A stretch of DNA of 64,000 nucleotides. It comes from Prorocentrum cordatum (taxonomy: Eukaryota; Sar; Dinophyceae; Prorocentrales; Prorocentraceae). The notes below the pieces were generated by a model. The model had not been told where the DNA came from. It saw only the letters and a program-made list of their open reading frames with translations, and did not search any database. The DNA lies in assembly GCA_963575745.1 (NCBI GenBank), contig CAUYUJ010016066.1, forward strand, positions 196,001 to 260,000. The letters are read 5' to 3'. How positions within the stretch are numbered: position 1 is the first letter of the stretch; every line of letters starts with the position of its first letter. This document shows, piece after piece, positions 26,878-39,440 of the stretch. The position numbers were made by a program, and so were the translations under genes.

Positions 26878-27107
26878 AGATGGTAGAGAGTGTCCCGATG
26901 ACTCATCATCTCGTTCCTACGGGCAAGAACTTGGGCGCATTTGAAGCCGTGCTGGGCGTAGTCGAGAGCTTCGGGCGCATCGGGCGGGGCTGGCTGTGGG
27001 CCGATTGGCGCGTCAATTTCGATCTTCGGGATCTCGCCGGAGGTGAGGGCGTTGAAATGGGCGCGGGCTGAGGGTGAACGAGGGAGAGAAAGAGGGGCGG
27101 GAAAATA
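26878..27107 (-). pseudogene. LINE endonuclease domain, C-terminal part, cut by the YR element
   Basis: The minus-strand frame reads FPAPLSLPRSPSARAHFNAL then IPKIEIDAPIGPQPAPPD and ALDYAQHGFKCAQVLARRNE. In LINE endonucleases the last strand and 'H.PV.l.l' are followed by a Pro-rich 'PIG..P' linker, which this resembles. It continues the domain broken at 34,968 by the 7,860-bp insertion. It ends at a stop after LYHLCAA. Confidence 0.5.
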
Positions 27108-27238
27108 CGCGTTTTTAAACACACTTTTACACACCCCCTTTAAACGTTCAGATAGCCGCCTCAACTGTAATTTAGGAGAAGGGCTAGCGCTTTCTCTCTC
27201 GTGCTTGACCCTCCTCTCCTGGCGCAAAGTTTCGGCTC
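27108..27238 (+). repeat. split direct repeat A1
   Basis: 131 bp from CGCGTTTTTAAACACAC to GTTTCGGCTC, repeated at 34,470-34,600 with two mismatches. It marks the left end of the YR element. Confidence 0.92.
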
Positions 27239-27511
27239 GAGGCGTGGGTTTCGCGGGCGAGGCCCGCACTCGAGCCTTCAGAGAGGGGAAGCTTCCAGCC
27301 CCTGCTCGCCCCGAGCCCGACAGGCTCGGGCGCCGCCACGACGCCGGCCATCGGGCGTCCCGGCTGGCTGCTGGTGACGGCACTCGCCCTCTGCGAGCTG
27401 GACGGGCTGCTGGAGTTCTTCGGCGGCCGCCAGAGGGAGTCCGAGGAGGTCCTCATCGAACCCCTCGACCTCGCGGGGGGCGCCGAGTGGACAGGGTCGC
27501 CAGCGGGGTTC

Positions 27512-29215
27512 ATGGCGCCGTGGAGCAGGTGGAACCGCGTCTACGTCCAGACGCAGGGGAGGAACACGGGGGTGGTGATGCTGCTCGTGAGCCGCGTCGG
27601 CCCAGGGACTTCGCTGGTGTGGACCGCGATCGACCCCGCCAAGCGGGTGCAGATCATCAACCTTCGGGACAAGGCGCGGATGCTGCCGCGCCCGAAGAAG
27701 GGAGTGACTTGGACCGAGCACCCAGGGCTGAGCGAGAAGGAGAGGGAGCAGGCGATCATAGCCGCGGAGCGGCTCATTGTGCGACACGAGCTGGGACAGG
27801 CTGGCGCCGAGAGCGCTAAGGCTAACTTGACGAAGGGCAAGAAGGCGAGCTCGAAGGCCAAGGTGGCGTCCTGGTTCGGCAAGGGGCTCGTGACCACCGT
27901 GGTGACGGCGTGGGCCCACAAGACGTGGGGCGGTGCTGCGGCGGCGTTCTTTGTGGGCTGGAGGTTGTGGCGTTGGCTGCATCTCGGGTCCTTCTTCGCC
28001 GCAGGGTACCACACCATCTTCGCGGGGATGCAGGCGATCGAGGACCTGGACAACTTCCGCGAGTTCATGGGCGAGCTGTACGAGTCGGGCGACCTCGAGC
28101 TGGGCGCGGCGTACCTGGGCTGTGTCCTCATCGGGATCTACGCGGTCTGGACATACGGGTGTTCCTGCCGCAAGGAGGGCGACTCGGACAGCGACTCGGG
28201 CTCGGACTCGGACGGCGGGTCCGTGCGCGCTGGCGAGGACGTGAGTGACGTGAGTGGGGACGAGCGGGACACCAAGACCCTGTTCGCGGAGTTGGCTCGG
28301 GGGCAGTCTGACTTGGCCGACGCGGTGGGTATGCTGAAGTCAAGGCTGGATGTCGGGGGCGGCGCGGGAGCAGGCCCGGCCTGCGGCGGTGGGGCTCTGG
28401 CGTCGGAGCCAGGCCCGCCTCCTCCGCCCCCCGCGGGGCCGCCGCCGTCCAGAGGAGACGAGCCCAGCACGGCCGAGGTGGATGCGTTCATCAAGAAGTT
28501 GACGGAGCACGAGGAGCTGGTGCAGCGTGACTCGGGCTCGAGCACCCGGGCGCAGGCAGGATCGCTTACGCCGAGTTCGAGCGCAGCATCCTGGGAGAAG
28601 GTTGGTGACCTGGGCGAGCTCGATGACCCCCTGAAGGACCAGATCGTTCAGCTGAAGGAGGAGTCGAGGAACCCGAAGGAGAGCTTGCTGACGACGCTGG
28701 AGAAGTACCGCCGCGTGGCAGGCTCCCCCGTGGGTGGGATCAAGGCCCGCGTGGCGCCGACGGTGCTGGCGAGGCTCTACAAGGGCGGGCGGAGCGCCCG
28801 CGTGGAGACGCAGGAGTGGCTCCGCTCCAAGGAGCTGCAGGGCGCAGGCATCGCGCAGGAGCTGAACATGCTGGCGCTGGTCCTTGACAGGATGATGAGC
28901 CAGGGGCAGTACGACGAGCTGATCAACTCGCAGGCCGCGGAGGTGACCTGCTTGCGCCTGTACTCGATCTGGAAGGCCTACGAGCGGGTGCAGTGCAAGA
29001 GCGACTGGCAGAGGCCGAAGGCGCAGCACGGCGGCAAGTGGCGCTCCAAGGTCGATTGGAGTCTGGCGGAGGAGTACCTGCGCCTCGACGGGGACCCCAA
29101 CAGCGAGAACAGGGGGGCCGACGACGAGGTGCTGGAGAAGCTCAGGCGGCGGGCGATCCTCAGCAAGCACCTGGGTGAGGTGCGCTCGGGGCAGCCCGCC
29201 GGCGAGGACGAATAG
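27512..29215 (+). CDS. Gag-like ORF of the YR element, with hydrophobic segments
   Basis: The first in-frame ATG is at 27,512, but the frame is open from 27,209 and residues just upstream look coding (ELDGLLEFFGGRQRESEEVL), so the true start is uncertain or non-AUG. Two hydrophobic segments come in the first half: GGAAAAFFVGWRLWRWLHLG and LGAAYLGCVLIGIYAVWTYG. An Asp/Ser acidic stretch follows (SDSDSGSDSDGG), then a Pro-rich linker, then a helical C-terminal half (ARLYKGGRSARVETQEWLRS, NMLALVLDRMMSQGQYDELI) that resembles a capsid-like domain. Membrane segments are not usual in DIRS-order Gags. No zinc knuckle is seen. It ends 0.3 kb before Pol. Confidence 0.7.
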   Translation: MAPWSRWNRVYVQTQGRNTGVVMLLVSRVGPGTSLVWTAIDPAKRVQIINLRDKARMLPRPKKGVTWTEHPGLSEKEREQAIIAAERLIVRHELGQAGAESAKANLTKGKKASSKAKVASWFGKGLVTTVVTAWAHKTWGGAAAAFFVGWRLWRWLHLGSFFAAGYHTIFAGMQAIEDLDNFREFMGELYESGDLELGAAYLGCVLIGIYAVWTYGCSCRKEGDSDSDSGSDSDGGSVRAGEDVSDVSGDERDTKTLFAELARGQSDLADAVGMLKSRLDVGGGAGAGPACGGGALASEPGPPPPPPAGPPPSRGDEPSTAEVDAFIKKLTEHEELVQRDSGSSTRAQAGSLTPSSSAASWEKVGDLGELDDPLKDQIVQLKEESRNPKESLLTTLEKYRRVAGSPVGGIKARVAPTVLARLYKGGRSARVETQEWLRSKELQGAGIAQELNMLALVLDRMMSQGQYDELINSQAAEVTCLRLYSIWKAYERVQCKSDWQRPKAQHGGKWRSKVDWSLAEEYLRLDGDPNSENRGADDEVLEKLRRRAILSKHLGEVRSGQPAGEDE

Positions 29216-29498
29216 GTTGCGGCCGGAGCTATCGTGGTGTGCTCTGGCCAAGGCCTGAGGGGTCAATCCCCTCTACCACGGCCGCGGCGGCGAGCCGCTT
29301 TCGTGCCGAGCTTCTTGCTGGACACGTCTTTCGGGTGGTGGTGCTACATCGGGCTGGTGAGCTTCCTGACGATCGGTTGTGGGGTCTTCCACGGCGGCGT
29401 CGGAGCGTCGAGGCCTTTCTTGTACTTAGAGCCTCGCGCCGTTCTGTGGCGAGTTGGCTTTCCCGTGCGTCGGAGCGCAGGTCGCTCGGTGGTCCCAG

Positions 29499-32400
29499 AT
29501 GCCTACTGGGGAGAAGGATGCGAGAGAGAGGGATCCCCTGAGGAGTCTGCCTGGGCTCCCGTTCCCACTACAGTCGAGGAGGTCGAGTTCGAGCCTGTCC
29601 GAGAAGGAGCTGAGGACAACCTGGCATCGGACTTCGAGGACGATAGCGGCGATCAGGAGTATGGCGACGGGCTGTTCGAATGGTTGGATACATCCATCGA
29701 CCCTGACGGACAAGCAGACGTGCCAGACGGACTGGAGTGCGAGTACGCCGCTGCAGAAAAGACTGGTGACGGAAGCCTGGGACCTTCACGCCGCGAGGGC
29801 GAAGTGGGGGACCATCAACGACGGCAGGGCGGCATTGAGCCGCCTGGCAGGAGGGAGCCCGACAGAGTATTTTGCGAAGGGATCGAGGCCTACGACGGCT
29901 ACGGCATCGAAGGCTTCACCGCAGTTGAGAAAGGGCGACTTGTGCCCTCTGAGAGCGGAGCAGGTGTCTCTCCCAGCGCCGGGGACCCAGAGCTTGGATG
30001 TGGCGGCGATCTCGAGTCTCGCTGGACGGTACCTCACAGAGGCCAGCCAGCTGATGATCAAGGGCTCGGGGGAAGTCGACTGGGAGAAGTACGAGGCGAC
30101 AAAGAGCTACTCGGACCCGGCGTGGCGGAGCAAGAAGGAACGCTTGGCACTTGCCCTGCGGATGGCGCAGGCTGGAATGATAACATATGTGACGAGGGTA
30201 CGCGAACATGTCGGGCTGTTCACGGTGGCGAAGGACTTCGACCCCAAGACTGGTGGTATCTTGAAGTCTCGGCTGATCTGGGACTGCCGAAGAGTCAACC
30301 TGCTCTTCGTGGATCCCCCGTGGGTGCCTTTGGGCAGCCCCGCGGGCCTCGCGCTCCTGGAGCTGGACGAGGCGGTGCTGCGTGGACGGCGGCTCTTCTC
30401 CTTCCAGGGCGACGTACCGGACTGGTTCTATCGGTTGCACTGGGGTTCGTTTTTGGCGGAGTATTTTGTGGTGGAGGATGTCTCGCCGCAGGAGCTGTAT
30501 CAGTACGGGATGGCGCAGGGCGTGGCGTTGCCGAAGCCGCGCGAGGAGGACATTGGTATTGGGGCTTCGAGCTTAGTCATGGGCTCGGCGTGGGCGGTGT
30601 TCTTGGCCCACAGCTGCCTGGAGGCGAGCTTCGAGTCCCTGAAGGCCCCCAGCTTGACTTACGGCAAGCCCACCCCGTCGTTTGGCCTATCGGAGGAGGA
30701 GGCGATCAGGTTCCTGCTGATGTTGTACATCGACGACTACATCGGCTTCACCCTCGAGGGCGAGGACGGCGAGCTGAAGATCCTGGAGGACAAGGAGATG
30801 ATCAAGGAGCTTCTGAACGGCAAGGGGCTCGCGGTGCACAAGGAGGCCTGGGGAGAAGGGATGGAGAACGGCCTGGGTCTGTGCATTGCCGCCACGAGAC
30901 CCTACACGCTGAGGATCCAGCCGAAGAAGATGGAGCAGGTCGTGCTGGCTACCGAGGCGGCGGTGTTGGAAGTGGCTCTCAGACCTGCGGCGGTGGCTTC
31001 TCTGGTCGGGCACTGGACCTGGACCATGATGGTCTTCCGCCCCTCGTTTGCGATCCTGGACGCGACCTACAGGTGGCTGAGGGAGTTCACCGAGGAGGAG
31101 AGTGTTGTGCCGCACCGCTTGCCCGAGGAGGTCAGGAGCGAGTTGAGGGCCGTCGCGTCCCTCTCGGTCTACATGGAGTCGAACCTGGAGATGGGCTGGT
31201 GGCCGAGAGCATATATGACGGATGCGTCCAACGAGGGCTTCGGCGCCCTGGCTTGCGACTGCACGGAGGAGGACGTCCGACGGGAAGCTGCCCGAGGAGA
31301 TGGGGGAGCTTGGGGACCCTTGGCCGAGCAGAGCTACACCGAGATCGAGCGGGCGCAGGAGGCGATCGGCGAGGAGGAGGACCTCCCGGCCGCTCCCACC
31401 ATGGGGCGACCTGGGGTGTTGGAGCTCTTCGCTGGGAGCTCTCGCTTGCTGGGGGCGATCAGGGAGCTGACCGACTCGTGGGGCGAGGCCTGGGACATCC
31501 AGCGGGGCATGGAGTTCGACGTGCTGGTCACAGAGAACTTGGAGCTGCTGTTACGGAGATTGAGGACTGGCTGGTTCTGGTGGGTGCATGTTGCCCCCCC
31601 GTGCGCGACGTTTTCGAGAGCAAGGCAGCCGCCGCTGAGGTCGAGCGATCACCCATGGGGGCTGCCGGACTGCACGGAGACGGACCAGGCCAAGATCGAC
31701 GAAGGGAACGCTTTGGCTTTGATAGCAGTAGAGGTGGTCAAGATCTGCCTACGCCTTGGCATTGGATTCACCCTCGAGAACCCCAGGACCAGCATGATAT
31801 GGGCGTTCGCGCCAATGACCGCGCTCTTGGATCTCGAGGGGGTTTTCCGTGTGGAGGTGGATTACTGCATGTATGGCGAAGAATGGAGGAAGCCAACTAC
31901 GTTCATCACCAACGTGAAGAAGATGGCGACGCTACAGCGGGTGTGCTTGTGCCCCTCGAGCCGATGCAGTCGGACTGGCCGAGCTCACCGAGAACTACGA
32001 GGACGATCACCAGGTGGGCTACGGTGGACTCAGGTGGCCTGTGCTTACCCGCTGGAGTTGTGCAGGGCATACGCGTCCACTCTGCAGGAGCTCGAGCCGC
32101 ACTGGGACTCGATACCAGCGGGGGCCCGGCTTCGCCTGCAGGGGGACCGCGGGCGCGTCGTGCGAGCGACTGGCCCAGCCCTGCCTTTGCTGGGCCATTG
32201 GCTGGAGAGGAAGTGGCACGTGCTGTTTCAGGGACGATGGTCTCACGCCGAGCACAACAACGTCCTGGAGTTGCGTACGGTGGTGGCGGTGCTCCGACAC
32301 CTCAGTCGCGCGTCCCAGAGCTGGAATCACCGCGTGTTTTTCTTCACCGACTCGTTGGTGAGCTTAGGCGTCCTGAAGAAAGGGCGCTCGTCTGCCAGGG

Positions 32401-32636
32401 ACCTCTTGCACCTGGCGAGGATCGGCGGCATCATCCAGATGGTCTGCAGGATCCGCGGGTACTTCAGGTGGGTGCCGAGCGAGCTCAACCTGGCAGACGG
32501 CCCCTCGAGAGGTCAAGGCATCGGCGCGGCGGAGGACACGGTGGCGGGCCACGTGGGCCGTGGAGTGCCGAGGGAGCTACTTCAACGGCTGCAAGATCGG
32601 GCCCGACGAGGACCGCCTGGAGCTTCGCATTTGTGA
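29499..32636 (+). CDS. Pol of the YR element: RT, RNase H split by a methyltransferase-like domain
   Basis: About 1,045 residues from the first ATG; the frame is open from 29,454. RT: RLIWDCRRVN, a first catalytic Asp at ~305 in FQGDVPDWFYRL, and YIDD at 410-413. RNase H: the first Asp, D575, lies in YMTDASNEGFGAL; the remaining residues appear far downstream as E924 in EHNNVLELRT, D951 in FFTDSL and D1000 in LNLADGPSR. Between them sits a methyltransferase-like domain: LELFAG (motif I, ~642-646), APPCATFS (PPC at 700-702, the motif IV position of C5 cytosine methyltransferases), LENP (760-762, near motif VI) and CMYGEEWRKPTTFITN. The protein would copy the element RNA; a DNA-methylating role is inferred only. 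Another frame is open throughout, but it is a Gly/Arg-rich shadow up to 32,636. Confidence 0.85.
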   Translation: MPTGEKDARERDPLRSLPGLPFPLQSRRSSSSLSEKELRTTWHRTSRTIAAIRSMATGCSNGWIHPSTLTDKQTCQTDWSASTPLQKRLVTEAWDLHAARAKWGTINDGRAALSRLAGGSPTEYFAKGSRPTTATASKASPQLRKGDLCPLRAEQVSLPAPGTQSLDVAAISSLAGRYLTEASQLMIKGSGEVDWEKYEATKSYSDPAWRSKKERLALALRMAQAGMITYVTRVREHVGLFTVAKDFDPKTGGILKSRLIWDCRRVNLLFVDPPWVPLGSPAGLALLELDEAVLRGRRLFSFQGDVPDWFYRLHWGSFLAEYFVVEDVSPQELYQYGMAQGVALPKPREEDIGIGASSLVMGSAWAVFLAHSCLEASFESLKAPSLTYGKPTPSFGLSEEEAIRFLLMLYIDDYIGFTLEGEDGELKILEDKEMIKELLNGKGLAVHKEAWGEGMENGLGLCIAATRPYTLRIQPKKMEQVVLATEAAVLEVALRPAAVASLVGHWTWTMMVFRPSFAILDATYRWLREFTEEESVVPHRLPEEVRSELRAVASLSVYMESNLEMGWWPRAYMTDASNEGFGALACDCTEEDVRREAARGDGGAWGPLAEQSYTEIERAQEAIGEEEDLPAAPTMGRPGVLELFAGSSRLLGAIRELTDSWGEAWDIQRGMEFDVLVTENLELLLRRLRTGWFWWVHVAPPCATFSRARQPPLRSSDHPWGLPDCTETDQAKIDEGNALALIAVEVVKICLRLGIGFTLENPRTSMIWAFAPMTALLDLEGVFRVEVDYCMYGEEWRKPTTFITNVKKMATLQRVCLCPSSRCSRTGRAHRELRGRSPGGLRWTQVACAYPLELCRAYASTLQELEPHWDSIPAGARLRLQGDRGRVVRATGPALPLLGHWLERKWHVLFQGRWSHAEHNNVLELRTVVAVLRHLSRASQSWNHRVFFFTDSLVSLGVLKKGRSSARDLLHLARIGGIIQMVCRIRGYFRWVPSELNLADGPSRGQGIGAAEDTVAGHVGRGVPRELLQRLQDRARRGPPGASHL

Positions 32637-33850
32637 TGGCAATGAGTGGGCTGAGGCTGTGCGAGGCGATGCCGCGGCGTGGAGCGGGCGGCCCCGCCGC
32701 GACCTCGGCGAAGCCCCCCCCTCTGGCTAAGAGGGGCGCTCGGGCCTGGGAGCAGGCACCGAGCGACAGGCTGCATCACAATGTGAGGCTCGTGGTGCAC
32801 GCCGTGGACGACGCCACGAATCAGATCTACGAGAAGGAGGTGAGGACCTTTCTCCTGGACGTGAAGCGGCACGGGCTCCCCTTCTCCACTTACGAGGAAA
32901 GGGATGCGGCGCTCGGCGGGTACATATCGGACATGTGCTACGTGATGCAGTTACCCTTCGGCAGGGCGTCTGCGTTGTTCAATGGCTTCATGCACATCTT
33001 CGAGGATCACCGCAATCGGCTCCCCGTCGCTGCCAGGGCGCTGAAGTCCTGGTCCAGGATGGGCTTCCAGAAGGAAGGGGCGCCGGTGCCGTTCGAAGCC
33101 GTGGGGTGCGTGCTCTACGACCTCTTTGAGCACGGCCAGCTGTGCGAGGGGGCCGCGGTGCTGCTGCAGCTTGACGGCTGGCTGAGGGAGCAGGACTGGG
33201 GCCTCCTCAGGAAGACGGACGTGGCGGTGGGGCCCGACGGGGAGGTCGGGCTCACCTTGGGCCGCAGGGAGCGGGGCGAGAAGGTGAAGACGGGAGCGAA
33301 CCAGGGCGTCGTGGTCTCGTGGCAGGTGACGAAGGCCATCCTGCGGGCGATCGGCAAGGGCGCGGCGCCACGGGACCTCCTCTTCCCGCTCTCACAGGAC
33401 AAGTACAGGAAGGCGTGGAGGATGGCTTTCGACAGGGCGGGCCTGGCGGACTTCGGGCCCCCGCACTCGCTGAGGCACGCGGGTGCGGCGGCCTACATCG
33501 CCGCGGGCGGTTCGCTGGAGGCGGCGCGCCGGAAGGGCCGCTGGCAGACCACGTCGGCCCTTCAGCGCTACACGAAGGTGCACGTGCTGATCGAGCAGCG
33601 GAGCCGGCTCACCCCCGAGCAGCTTGAGCGGGGGCGGGCCTTCTGGCGCAGGCCGGCCCAGCAGATCGCGGAGGCCATCTACCGCTCCGACGCCGTGCTG
33701 GCCCCGCTGGCGCGGGACATGGTGCACGAGCTCGAGGCAGCCAAGAACGACGAGGTCGTGCTGCCGCAGCTGGAGAGCATGGCGGACGGGGGCGCGGAGC
33801 CCACCGGCCGCCCGTCTACGGCTGGCCGCAGCAGGGCTAGACGGCAATGA
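32636..33850 (+). CDS. tyrosine recombinase of the YR element
   Basis: 404 residues that start at an ATG sharing its A with the Pol stop codon (TGATG). This overlap suggests translation by termination-reinitiation. It would integrate circular cDNA by site-specific recombination, replacing a DDE integrase. Catalytic residues in order: R184 in DGWLREQDWGLL, H277 and R280 in PHSLRHAGAAAY, W303 in KGRWQTTSALQ, and the nucleophile Y312 in QRYTKVH. The N-terminal half (RTFLLDVKRHGLPFSTYEER...) fits the core-binding helical domain. Length is normal for DIRS-order recombinases. The same frame is open far upstream, but that region is antisense-like shadow of Pol. Confidence 0.88.
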   Translation: MAMSGLRLCEAMPRRGAGGPAATSAKPPPLAKRGARAWEQAPSDRLHHNVRLVVHAVDDATNQIYEKEVRTFLLDVKRHGLPFSTYEERDAALGGYISDMCYVMQLPFGRASALFNGFMHIFEDHRNRLPVAARALKSWSRMGFQKEGAPVPFEAVGCVLYDLFEHGQLCEGAAVLLQLDGWLREQDWGLLRKTDVAVGPDGEVGLTLGRRERGEKVKTGANQGVVVSWQVTKAILRAIGKGAAPRDLLFPLSQDKYRKAWRMAFDRAGLADFGPPHSLRHAGAAAYIAAGGSLEAARRKGRWQTTSALQRYTKVHVLIEQRSRLTPEQLERGRAFWRRPAQQIAEAIYRSDAVLAPLARDMVHELEAAKNDEVVLPQLESMADGGAEPTGRPSTAGRSRARRQ

Positions 33851-34135
33851 GCAGGCTGCCGCAGCCCCCACCCTCATTTTAGGCCCCCGCCTTTCGCGGG
33901 TGCTATATCTTTTGATATGAATGCAGGAGCCTCGAGAGTTGGGCGCGTGCACCCTGTCCTCCACTTGTCTTCCTTGAACGCTTGATAGATATGGGGAAAA
34001 TATAAAGCAGGTTTTTTGGTGGGTGAGAGCGACGCAAATTATCTCCCTTTCCCCCCCTCCCGAATGTGTGCCGCGCTCGTGTCTAGCAGTGGCTGGAAGC
34101 ATGAAGGCACTAGTGCCAGTCTAGTGATGACGGGA
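33851..34135 (+). other. 3' non-coding region of the YR element
   Basis: Lies between the recombinase stop and repeat B1. It is AT-richer, and holds GAAAATATAAAGCAGG near 33,995, a possible polyadenylation region. No ORF is supported. Confidence 0.45.
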
Positions 34136-34469
34136 CTGGGGGTTTCGCCGCGAGGCTTGTTGGCCCGACCGTGGGCCGAGGCACGGTCAGGAACCTCTCG
34201 GCCTTTTAAGTTTCGGGCCTCACACGGGGCCCCGCCGCTGCGAACAGATACTTTCGGAGGGTGCCCCCTCCTCTCGAGCCGCTCGCTGTCCTGTGGGTGT
34301 GTCTCCTCCCGCTGCTGCGTCGGATATTCTGTGGGGCCTCTTTTCATTAGGGTTGTCGCTCTACCCCCGCCTGCCCCCAGCACTCTTAAATCAAGATTTA
34401 ATGGTATAGGCACGCTCCGAGTTAACATAGATTCAAGCCTGGCTCTCGAGTGTGGGTGCTGTGTAAATG
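34136..34469 (+). repeat. split direct repeat B1
   Basis: 334 bp, from CTGGGGGTTTCGCCGCG to GTGCTGTGTAAATG, identical to B2 except at two positions and joined without a gap to A2. Confidence 0.92.
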
Positions 34470-34600
34470 CGCGTTTTTAAACACACTTTTACACGCCCCC
34501 TTTAAACGTTCAGATAGCCGCCTCAACTGTAATTTAGGAGAAGGGCTAGCGCTTTCTCTCTCGTGCTTGACCCTCCTCTCCTGGCGCGAAGTTTCGGCTC
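34470..34600 (+). repeat. split direct repeat A2
   Basis: 131-bp internal copy of A1. The B1-A2 junction (AAATG|CGCG) should equal the junction formed when the element ends are joined in a circle, which is the expected logic of split direct repeats. A 33-bp spacer (34,601-34,633) separates A2 from B2. Confidence 0.92.
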
Positions 34601-34633
34601 CCAACCCTGCCCCCCCTTGGGCTTGTATGGGCT

Positions 34634-34967
34634 CTGGGGGTTTCGCCGCGAGGCTTGTTGGCCCGACCGTGGGCCGAGGCGCGGTCAGGAACCTCTCGGC
34701 CTTTTAAGTTTCGGGCCTCACACGGGGCCCCGCCGCTGCGAACAGATACTTTCGGAGGGTGCCCCCTCCTCTCGAGCCGCTCGCTGTCCTGTGGGTGTGT
34801 CTCCTCCCGCTGCTGCGTCGGATATTCTGTGGGGCCTCTTTTCATTAGGGTTGTCGCTCTACCCCCGCCTGCCCCCAGCACTCTTAAGTCAAGATTTAAT
34901 GGTATAGGCACGCTCCGAGTTAACATAGATTCAAGCCTGGCTCTCGAGTGTGGGTGCTGTGTAAATG
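34634..34967 (+). repeat. split direct repeat B2
   Basis: The right end of the YR element, 334 bp, 99% identical to B1. The LINE endonuclease sequence resumes immediately after it at 34,968. Confidence 0.92.
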
Positions 34968-37229: not shown

Positions 37230-37640
37230 AAAAGGTCTGATAATCAATACTCGTGCCAATACGCCACTCCTTGGACTTCAATGCCGCGAACAAAACTTCA
37301 CTGTTGCGTCCTGACGACCCTGCATCGTGCCAAACCACCATTCCTGGGATGCCAACATCAAATTGACGCGACTTTTGCGCCCTGAGAATCCTACCTCGTG
37401 TCGGAACACCGTTCTTGGGGCGTGAATCAACAGAATCCGTTAAACAGTTGTAAGCTTGAAGACGCATGTGCGCGGTGCTAAAACGAAAACCACATTCTGA
37501 AACCGCCCGCTCTCCATGCGCGAAGCTCTCGTGCGCGGCGCTAAGGCGAGAGCCACATCTTGCATACCACCCGCCCTCCATCCATGAAGCTGTTGCGTAT
37601 CTTCAACTTGAACATCATAAGCGGTGACGACGTCTCAGGA
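37230..37640. repeat. non-coding stretch with two short tandem duplications
   Basis: Two imperfect duplications: 'cctgacgaccctgcatcgtg' with 'cctgagaatcctacctcgtg' (period ~73 bp), and 'gtgcgcggtgctaaaacga' with 'gtgcgcggcgctaaggcga' (period ~64 bp). A minus-strand frame is open across it, but its repeats and composition do not support a gene. Confidence 0.45.
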
Positions 37641-37714
37641 AGCCCGCCTGGCCCGCTCTGCTGACACGTCTCTGGGTGTGGCGGGGAGGTTTACTTGATG
37701 AGGAGCGGGATGGA

Positions 37715-38115
37715 GGAGGAGGACGATGACGGAGGAGGAGGAGGAGGAGGAGGAGGAGGAGGAGGAGGAGGAGGAGGAGGAGGAGGAGGAGGAGGAGGAG
37801 GAGGAGGAGGAGGAGGAGGAGGAGGAGGAGGAGGGAGGAGGAGGAGGAGGAGGAGGAGGAGGAGGAGGAGGAGGAGGAGGAGGAGATGATGAGGAGGAGG
37901 AGAAGGAGAGGAGGAGGAGGAGGAGGAGGAGGAGGAGGAGCATGAACATGAGCAGGAGCAGGATGATGAGGAGGAGGAGGAGGAGGAGTTGAAGGAGGAG
38001 GAGGAGGAGGAGGAGGAGGAAGAGGAGGAAGATGAAGAGGAGGAGGAGGAGAAGGAGGAGAAGGTGGAAGCAGAAGCGGAGGAGGAGGAGGAGGAGGAGG
38101 AGGAGGAGGAGGAGA
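37715..38115. repeat. GGA microsatellite
   Basis: About 400 bp of (GGA)n with GAT, GAA and CAT interruptions. The poly-Glu, poly-Gly and poly-Ser/Pro/Leu ORFs are artefacts. Confidence 0.95.
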
Positions 38116-38294
38116 AGATCCTGGCAAAGCTCGTACATCGCGGAGCCCGCGTTCCCGTCGGCGCGGCCTCGGCGCGGCGCCGCCGGCCTCGGCCGCTCCC
38201 GGGGCCCCGCGGGGGCGCGGCCGGCCACTGGTGCGCGGGGCCGCCCCGGCGCCGAGATGCTCGGGCAGAGGCGCCTGCGGGGGATGGGGGAGGC

Positions 38295-38449
38295 TTTTTT
38301 TGGGGGGGCCTCGACGCCATCACCTTCCAATCCTCAGCCTGCAGCGAGGGGGCTGCAGGCCAGGGGCAGGGGGGAAATTTTTTTTTGGGGGCCTCGACGC
38401 CACCACCTGCAGATCCTTAGCCTGCAGCGAGGGGGCTTCAGGCCAGGGA
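38295..38449. repeat. 83-bp tandem duplication
   Basis: TTTTTTGGGGG(GG)CCTCGACGCC followed by CCTGCAGCGAGGGGGCT and CAGGCCAGG occurs twice, 83 bp apart. Confidence 0.75.
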
Positions 38450-39440
38450 TGCGCTGGCCTGCTCGCCGGTGGAGTTGGTCAGGCCCCTCCAGAGAACGAG
38501 TTGCATCATGAGCCTCCTGCTCCTCCTCAGCTGGGGGGGAGAAGGAGAATCGACAAGCGCGTTTCAGTACTCGCAAAGTGACTACTCGCAGAAGCCCTGC
38601 AGTCGACGAGCGCGTTCCACGACTCGCAACGTGACTACTCGCAAATGGCCTGGATCCGCCGCGGGGGATCCACGATAAAATTACACCGACACGGACATGT
38701 GTTTTTTTCGGTTGTCTGCGAGTGGGCACTCTGCGAGCAGCGGAGCGCGCTCGGTGAGAGGAGGACCCTGAGATCTGCAGAGGAAGAACCACGCAGCACA
38801 CGCAACAACTGCCGGAGGTCCGCGCGGACAGCCAAGATCGGCACTCTGGCCATCGCTTGGACGTCCATTCCCTGTGTTTTTTTCGATTTCGTGCGTGGTT
38901 TTTTCGCTAAATGATCAAGGATGCTCCTCGATGGCCCTCGCCGAAGGAAAAATGCACACGTCCGAGCGATGCCAAACACTGGGCCTCGAACGTGGGCGCT
39001 GCAATCTTCTTCGCCGGGCGCTCCCGCCCGATCTCGGGCCCCGGGGCCTTCACAGAGAGATCGGGCGGGCTCGGAAGCTACCGCGCAAGGACGGGGTGCA
39101 TTTTCTTTTGTTTTTGTTTTTTTTCTTCCCCCCCAAATACCAGCCAATGTCCACAATTCGATGTCTCCAGTCAGGCCGCCGGCTGCCAGATGCGTGCACC
39201 CGCGTGCTACCCGCCAGGTCCGAAGCAGAAACCCTGGACTGGGGCAGCGAGGCAGACGCATACCTGGACACGGTGTTTTCGGACATCCCGCAGGTCGAGG
39301 ACGGGGCGCAGGGCTCTGGTGGGAATTTCGTTGTGCTGCGTTTTTTTCTGCAGCGCCAGGCTGCATGGGGAGGAGGCCGGACCAAGACGACGCATGCAGC
39401 ATGATTTCGACGTGCGCGCGCGAACATGGACTCTGTCATA
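38450..39440. other. about 1 kb without a recognised gene
   Basis: Contains a two-copy repeat at about 38,560-38,645 (ACTCGCAA.GTGACTACTCGCA). On the plus strand a non-repetitive frame at about 39,180-39,320 (RLPDACTRVLPARSEAETLD, then DAYLDTVFSDIPQVEDG) looks like it could be an exon, but its borders are not clear. Poly-T runs at 38,880 and 39,110 break other frames. Confidence 0.3.

Follow-up and report, generated by a model that had tools for sequence, protein, structure and literature searches.

A Dam-like N6-adenine methyltransferase (MT; PF05869) has been described beside RNase H in retrotransposons of the DIRS/PAT type (PMC3783388 and PMC3266345, in the parts available), and the second of these papers calls the role of methyltransferases in tyrosine recombinase (YR) retrotransposons unknown. 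A C5 methyltransferase of the Dnmt3 type was reported in the Pol protein of a dinoflagellate DIRS element, SymbioDIRS-Dnmt3 (de Mendoza et al. 2018; PMC5890265). As far as the available sections of that paper go, its MTs were found with PF00145, two domain orders coexist, YR is encoded in a separate open reading frame (ORF), de novo CG methylation by the DIRS-type DNMT is stated, and methylation of the cDNA is proposed. Here we describe a YR retrotransposon of the dinoflagellate Prorocentrum cordatum in whose Pol, judging by profile matches, an MT-like domain very probably lies inside RNase H itself, the order being reverse transcriptase (RT), RNase H (N-terminal piece), MT and RNase H (C-terminal piece). 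The element is located in a stretch of 64,000 nucleotides, called the window below (positions 196,001 to 260,000 of contig CAUYUJ010016066.1, or G000:C15217:196001-260000 within the 4.13-Gb assembly).

The element shares with PAT-like and Ngaro-like elements (DIRS order) a gag, a Pol with RT and RNase H, a YR ORF, split direct repeats in the arrangement A-pol-B-A-B and the lack of a target-site duplication; an MT, too, is present in DIRS and PAT-type elements. In these, as described in the accessible parts of the literature, the MT is a Dam-like N6-adenine enzyme placed beside RNase H, whereas here it is probably of the C5 type and within RNase H. SymbioDIRS-Dnmt3 resembles it in host group and DIRS type, in having a C5 methyltransferase encoded within Pol, in encoding YR separately and in the coexistence of two domain orders, but its enzyme is a PF00145-positive Dnmt3 while the present one is Pfam-negative and nested, a distinction drawn from the available part of the published description only. 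The sequence-only reading, which proposed the nested arrangement from the letters of the window, knew of no earlier description. Its account of earlier work was incomplete, as C5 MTs in a dinoflagellate DIRS Pol were in print by 2018 (PMC5890265, in the part available); for nesting inside RNase H, and for this MT family, no description was found among the open-licence PMC papers searched. The candidates for novelty are therefore the nesting and the MT family only.

RESULTS

Two co-linear RNase H pieces in Pol

Residues of the window Pol (P0001) are numbered here along the stop-to-stop frame. The four carboxylates expected of RNase H (D-E-D-D) occur in order as D598, E947, D974 and D1023; counted from Met-24 these are D575 (codon at 31221), E924, D951 and D1000 (ending at 32498), so that the residues, coordinates (31221..32498) and motifs (LFAG, LENP and the others) given by the sequence-only reading were correct. 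Since the intact Pol gave no Pfam match to RNase H or MT, an RNase H profile was built from eight relatives whose RNase H is uninterrupted. P0001 matched this profile twice, with model positions 5–37 at residues 590–622 (i-E, the independent E-value, 6e-5) and positions 63–166 at residues 926–1028 (i-E 2e-30), the two pieces being co-linear and the MT lying between them. The C-terminal piece, matched from model position 63 onwards, does not include the first Asp. At the level of sequence, the earlier proposal of a C5-methyltransferase-like domain nested in a split RNase H is upheld. When the sequence is set against relatives with an unbroken RNase H, the insertion falls after DASxxGxGxxx and before GxWxxxEHxNxLE, a junction that agrees with the position between the first strand and the first helix originally suggested.

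A profile of the N-terminal piece scored 22.1 bits at residues 590–618 of P0001, the best of 300 shuffles reaching 4.0; it exceeded all 300 shuffles in nine of ten proteins, P0016 failing. In a set of 14 proteins, two co-linear pieces were found in P0001, P0002, P0004, P0005, P0007, P0015 and P0016, the weakest N-terminal pieces being those of P0016 (i-E 0.0065) and P0005 (6e-4). P0003 and P0025 showed the N-terminal piece only (weakly in P0025, 0.049), and P0006, P0013, P0021, P0034 and P0042 in substance only the C-terminal one. These single-piece matches arise mostly because the records are partial, P0034 being of the kind that has its MT downstream. When the MT was removed in silico, Pfam RNase_H was recovered across the junction in three of six constructs (E 0.033, 0.017 and 0.083), against one of five controls consisting of the C-terminal piece (0.21), a result that lends supportive but weak backing to a split RNase H.

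The block between the pieces resembles a small C5-type methyltransferase

The block between the two pieces spans ∼230 residues (659–887 of Pol), with LFAG at 666, APPC at 722, LENP at 782, CMYG at 813 and RKPT at 820. It matches PHROG 2882, annotated as 'DNA methyltransferase', at E 3.4e-5; among nine divergent members of the family, six match PHROG 757 and five PHROG 2882 (E up to 1). A search with the nine-member alignment returned 53 proteins, the weaker ones being small standalone proteins, and four of the ten tested proteins from this search match PF00145 over the cut-off. Profile–profile comparison (hhalign) of the MT group with the standalone group gave a probability of 99.6% (E 4.9e-24) nearly end to end, in a co-linear alignment through motif I, PPC, ENP and KPT..TN. 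The phage 'DNA methyltransferase' families PHROG 757, 2882 and 363 and the small standalone PF00145-matching proteins (P0059–P0061 and P0071) share with this MT FAG, PPCxTFS, ENP, YCxYG..KPTxxxTN and small size; they differ in not being joined to RT or RNase H. PF00145 itself was not matched directly by any of the nine members, and was reached only via the intermediate standalone family.

The PPC cysteine (motif IV), E and P of ENP and several Cys, Gly and Lys residues farther along the chain are invariant in all nine members, as is, with that cysteine, the glycine of the C5-superfamily motif I (FAG; alignment columns G10 and C66). In a sequence search of the PDB, motifs I–IV matched solved DNMT2 weakly (E 0.004), among chance matches, and the MT alone as a single query of this type returned one unrelated match at 0.05. 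Membership of the Dam-like group was rejected, the MT lying within RNase H and Pfam giving no match of the PF05869 type at E up to 10. Taken from its motifs and its standalone relatives, a C5-type chemistry is likely for this MT.

A search of the whole genome with the classical PF00145 gave 129 matches (123 of 3,988 candidates scored), none of those listed being at this element.

Pol is conserved among copies of the element

The genome search with Pol scored 43 places out of 20,737 first-look candidates, so that the number of copies is a lower bound. In these at least 43 places Pol is 96–100% identical over nearly its entire length and, in 41 of the 43, free of internal stops, in line with the earlier statements that the element is young and its ORF intact. 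Ratios of non-synonymous to synonymous change (dN/dS) were obtained for the window and 19 copies, L015 having been dropped from the 20 fetched owing to its broken pol; being counted pairwise over related copies, they are comparative values and not independent estimates. The lowest in Pol was that of the N-terminal RNase H piece (0.035), followed by the C-terminal piece (0.11), the linkers (0.11 and 0.13), RT (0.19), the tail (0.20) and the N-terminal region (0.21), with the MT highest of the eight stretches (0.27). In the same 20 sequences LFAG, LENP and CMYG were kept throughout and APPCATFS in 19; TDAS was kept in 19 (TDAP in the other), and HNNVLEL, FTDS and NLADGPSR in all. As far as substitution patterns can tell, Pol is shown to be under purifying selection, the MT included.

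Nesting recurs in other families

Among the matches listed, a genome search with P0004 found 43 places, those of the window family included, with open frames of 1032–1091 residues. Nested representatives of other families were fetched (L033, L034, L035 and L036, of which L036 hardly differs from L034), whose Pol proteins are 40–54% identical to P0001. In all four the MT is inside Pol and the C-terminal RNase H piece follows it; the N-terminal piece was found at i-E 0.02 in L033, 1.3e-6 in L034 and 9.5e-7 in L036. The same split is found in L033, L034/L036 and L035, the N-terminal piece of L035 being weak and picked up in the shuffle test only. Nesting was also seen in database relatives. By these profile matches the nesting is a recurrent architecture, found in four families of this genome, and not a one-off, L035 being its weakest case.

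Some homologues do lack the middle block, an observation that the sequence-only reading had named as refuting, and others carry it elsewhere; they show an uninterrupted alternative and do not refute the nesting. Database relatives without nesting are P0017, P0018 and P0020, which have no MT in their records (P0017 stops right after RNase H), and P0008–P0012 and P0014. A sister class, present in the same genome (L029–L032) and in the database (P0008–P0011), has a related RT, the same MT family and the organisation of a YR element, but its MT is downstream of an uninterrupted RNase H, in which a long loop occupies the site of the insertion. In L029–L032 a single RNase H match (model positions 1–166; 7–166 in L029) extends over 207–213 residues, and the MT match that follows it is partial in L029–L031. 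L029 and L031 have the MT in the pol frame, which on its way there from RNase H crosses the recombinase gene, itself read in a different frame (3085–5628 in L029 and 3070–5391 in L031, in reverse-complement coordinates). The relation differs in L030, whose YR match shares the frame of RNase H while its MT does not, and in L032, where the MT is likewise out of that frame and YR gave no significant match. Frameshifts may be present in some of these copies. P0014 carries, near residue 1220 and after its MT, the sequence GDVEPNPGP, which we take to be 2A-like; ...NPGP motifs precede the recombinase in P0012 and P0013.

Nine nested rows (the degenerate P0015 counted) fall on one side of a branch in the RT tree (support 71/70), and nine nested rows do so in the MT tree (84/77), groupings that, no branch being strong, are modestly supported. 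Constraining P0016, a long branch, to group with the other nested rows was rejected in the RT tree (approximately unbiased test, P = 0.009), and its nesting may therefore be independent. In P0016 and P0025, which are distant from the other nested elements and do not group with them, the MT precedes the C-terminal RNase H piece; perhaps they represent a second, independent nesting.

The gag/YR frame is open across pol

The frame that encodes gag and YR also crosses the window pol, where it holds 0 stops in 1045 codons, against ∼21–24 (and never fewer than 12) when synonymous codons are shuffled; the third frame holds 39 against the 39–41 expected. The controls were not depleted (gag, 9 stops versus 10–11; YR, 5 versus 6). 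When the window was taken together with 17 copies (L010, L015 and L017 left out), the gag/YR frame over pol had no stop in 16 of the 18 and one stop in two; the gag stop was TAG in every case, and after it the frame ran without a stop over all 1544 codons in 14. The other nested families gave 0 stops against 13.7 (L033), 21.9 (L034), 19.2 (L035) and 17.3 (L036) expected, and the class with a downstream MT 31 versus 38.7, 31 versus 38.6, 54 versus 55.6 and 43 versus 46.5. The depletion rests chiefly on TGA, because TAG is rare in the control class also (1 versus 10.7, 3 versus 12.7 and 1 versus 10.0 expected): TGA was absent from the nested families (12.5, 8.5, 9.5 and 10.5 expected) and not depleted in the controls (25 versus 21.1, 44 versus 36.6 and 37 versus 31.4).

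In all four nested families the gag frame is the one that overlaps pol, separated from the overlapping stretch by TAG (window and L034), TGA (L033) or two stops (L035). YR was seen to share this frame in the window and, at their ends, in L034 and L036; the stretches of L033 and L035 end before YR. A conserved protein encoded across pol in the gag/YR frame was rejected, since its identity between families equals that obtained with codon-shuffled pols (z –0.5 to 2.2, six pairs). According to the available part of PMC3266345, the pol and YR ORFs overlap at length in half of 28 DIRS1-like elements, the catalytic domain being in the non-overlapping 3′-end. Beyond such overlap, the stop counts suggest that openness alone, and not sequence, seems to be selected here. 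In the window the frame has no ATG between 29216 and 31655, and an open gag/YR frame could be explained by any one of readthrough, reinitiation, frameshifting out of pol and initiation at a non-ATG codon; the differing stop codons (TAG, TGA, two stops) speak against a tuned readthrough signal.

The complete element and its copies

The coordinates of the element and its parts are collected in Table 1. Sixteen of 20 copies align by blastn in one piece from ∼27106 to ∼34965; the exceptions are L011, aligned in two pieces, and L012, L022 and L025, aligned in part. The window and the 16 copies have identical end sequences, and no target-site duplication was seen at their flanks (by eye only). The repeat order A1-ORFs-B1-A2-B2 is that of YR elements of the PAT/Ngaro type. 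The gag-like ORF has no Pfam match and finds relatives in the other three nested families (E 3e-158 to 2e-81). P0001 gave no Pfam RT match; a relative aligned to its RT region, P0017, matches RVT_1 at 4.2e-9.

Table 1. Features of the element in the window
Feature	Position	Strand	Remarks
Complete YR retrotransposon	27106..34965	+	7,860 bp; ends TACGCG...GTGTAAA; from blastn against 20 copies
Split direct repeat A1	27106..27238	+	98% to A2; repeat match itself 27103-27238 / 34465-34600
Gag-like ORF	27209..29215	+	668 codons, TAG end; frame shared with YR
Stop-free gag/YR-frame ORF	29216..33850	+	overlaps whole pol; tyrosine recombinase at its end
Pol ORF	29430..32636	+	open frame of 1068 aa; first Met at 29499
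RT region	30117..31109	+	YIDDY at 30726; approximate bounds, from alignment to relatives
Putative RNase H N-terminal piece, first catalytic Asp (TDAS)	31197..31295	+	profile match 5-37 of 166; shuffles
Putative nested C5-type MT (LFAG, APPCATFS, LENP, CMYG..RKPT)	31404..32090	+	PHROG 2882, homologues; bounds from profile
Putative RNase H C-terminal piece (HNNVLEL, FTDS, ADGPSR)	32205..32513	+	profile match 63-166 of 166, i-E 2e-30
Tyrosine recombinase catalytic domain	33158..33580	+	PF00589, E 4.9e-7
Split direct repeat B1	34136..34467	+	99% to B2; repeat match 34136-34435, end from copy alignment
Split direct repeat A2	34468..34600	+	98% to A1
Split direct repeat B2	34634..34965	+	99% to B1; repeat match 34634-34933, end from copy alignment

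Elsewhere in the window, long simple repeats at ∼37600–38500 give poly-Ser/Leu/Pro frames. The dinoflagellate spliced leader occurs in the genome in 14,218 exact copies, and its reversed control in none, as expected of a dinoflagellate host.

DISCUSSION

The explanation that we consider best, with a probability of about 0.6, is that of a PAT/Ngaro-like element with a single Pol in which a C5-type MT is nested in RNase H and would methylate the new cDNA. A small C5-type cytosine MT, from a family related to phage MTs, would have been inserted in the loop that follows the first strands of RNase H; the two pieces would fold together into one RNase H from which the MT grows out, and the loop would hold the MT near the RNA:DNA hybrid. 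Cytosines of the new cDNA would be methylated during, or just after, removal of the RNA by RNase H, and the copy entering the genome would thereby already be methylated like its surroundings. That this methylation is the purpose of the MT is put forward tentatively; since the DNMT of PMC5890265 is of a different MT family, it provides only a lead for the mechanism here. It is a rather speculative extension that this clade has fused two catalytic cycles, methylating the cDNA where the RNA is removed, and that its ribosomes cross pol in a second, stop-free and unconserved frame to reach the recombinase.

Several results weigh against a nested, catalytic MT. Pfam, at E up to 10, finds neither an RNase H in the intact P0001 nor a methyltransferase in any of the nine MT members; the RNase_H matches across the in silico junction are below the Pfam cut-off, an unrelated family scoring better in the construct with E 0.083, and a sequence search of the PDB with a profile made from six uninterrupted RNases H recovers no RNase H. 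The N-terminal piece is unsupported in P0016 by the shuffle test, and in L035 it was not reported at i-E 0.01 and beats 300 shuffles at only 4.7 bits. P0018, whose record has no MT, is placed with the nested rows in the RT tree (85/89 for the ten). As to the motifs, the usual C5 motifs VI and VIII are ENV and QxRxR, where ENP and KPT are found here; in four of the nine members the first P of PPC varies (MPC, TPC) or PVC stands in its place, and the standalone relative P0031 lacks the motif IV cysteine. Finally, P0015 retains in the same RNase H loop (residues ∼670–965) an MT-like block that has diverged and lost PPC and ENP, and which scores 12.6 bits with the MT profile (best of 2000 shuffles, 7.7). 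Catalysis would thus not always be needed, and P0015 suggests that the insert in the loop can outlive its motifs.

That block is also what chiefly favours a mainly structural role, in which an MT-derived module shapes or props the RNase H/RT complex, catalysis being secondary or lost; the dN/dS of the MT, the highest in Pol, points the same way. P0015 is, however, the sole degenerate relative of its kind seen, with an hhalign probability of only 5% (E 0.007), and against such a role stand the MT motifs, kept in 19–20 of 20 copies, and the Cys and Glu common to all nine divergent members, which make a structural module unlikely. It is rather improbable that the element is SymbioDIRS-Dnmt3 or a direct relative of it and hence already known: the host group, the DIRS type, a C5-type MT in Pol and the two domain orders do coincide, but the published MTs, in the part of the paper available, were found with PF00145 and fall within Dnmt3, while PF00145 is matched by none of the nine members here and none of its listed genome matches is at this element.

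The split itself could be only apparent, with all of RNase H on the C-terminal side and an upstream TDAS that is vestigial or due to chance. The C-terminal piece does carry most of the profile score, and P0006, P0013, P0021 and P0042 show that side only; their records, however, start inside or at the MT, and a piece that begins at model position 63 would be an RNase H without its first Asp. The shuffle test rejects a chance TDAS, and the N-terminal piece has the lowest dN/dS of Pol, which together leave this alternative very little room. An origin of the middle block as an intron or assembly artefact could appeal to the fact that dinoflagellate genes can be intron-rich; it is hardly credible and was rejected, since the scored copies are, with two exceptions, stop-free in Pol, three other families keep the reading frame open across the block, and conservation and selection act at the level of the protein.

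If the preferred reading, a C5-type MT nested in RNase H, is true, a whole enzyme would have remained nested in the fold of another over deep divergence, a striking domain insertion given that RNase H is a compact enzyme needed by most such retroelements to finish their cDNA. As Pfam has no match to this MT family, surveys based on PF00145 may have missed it. The sister class, with this MT outside RNase H, allows a direct comparison of the two layouts within one genome, and the nested elements would offer a testable handle on the role of methyltransferases in YR retrotransposons.

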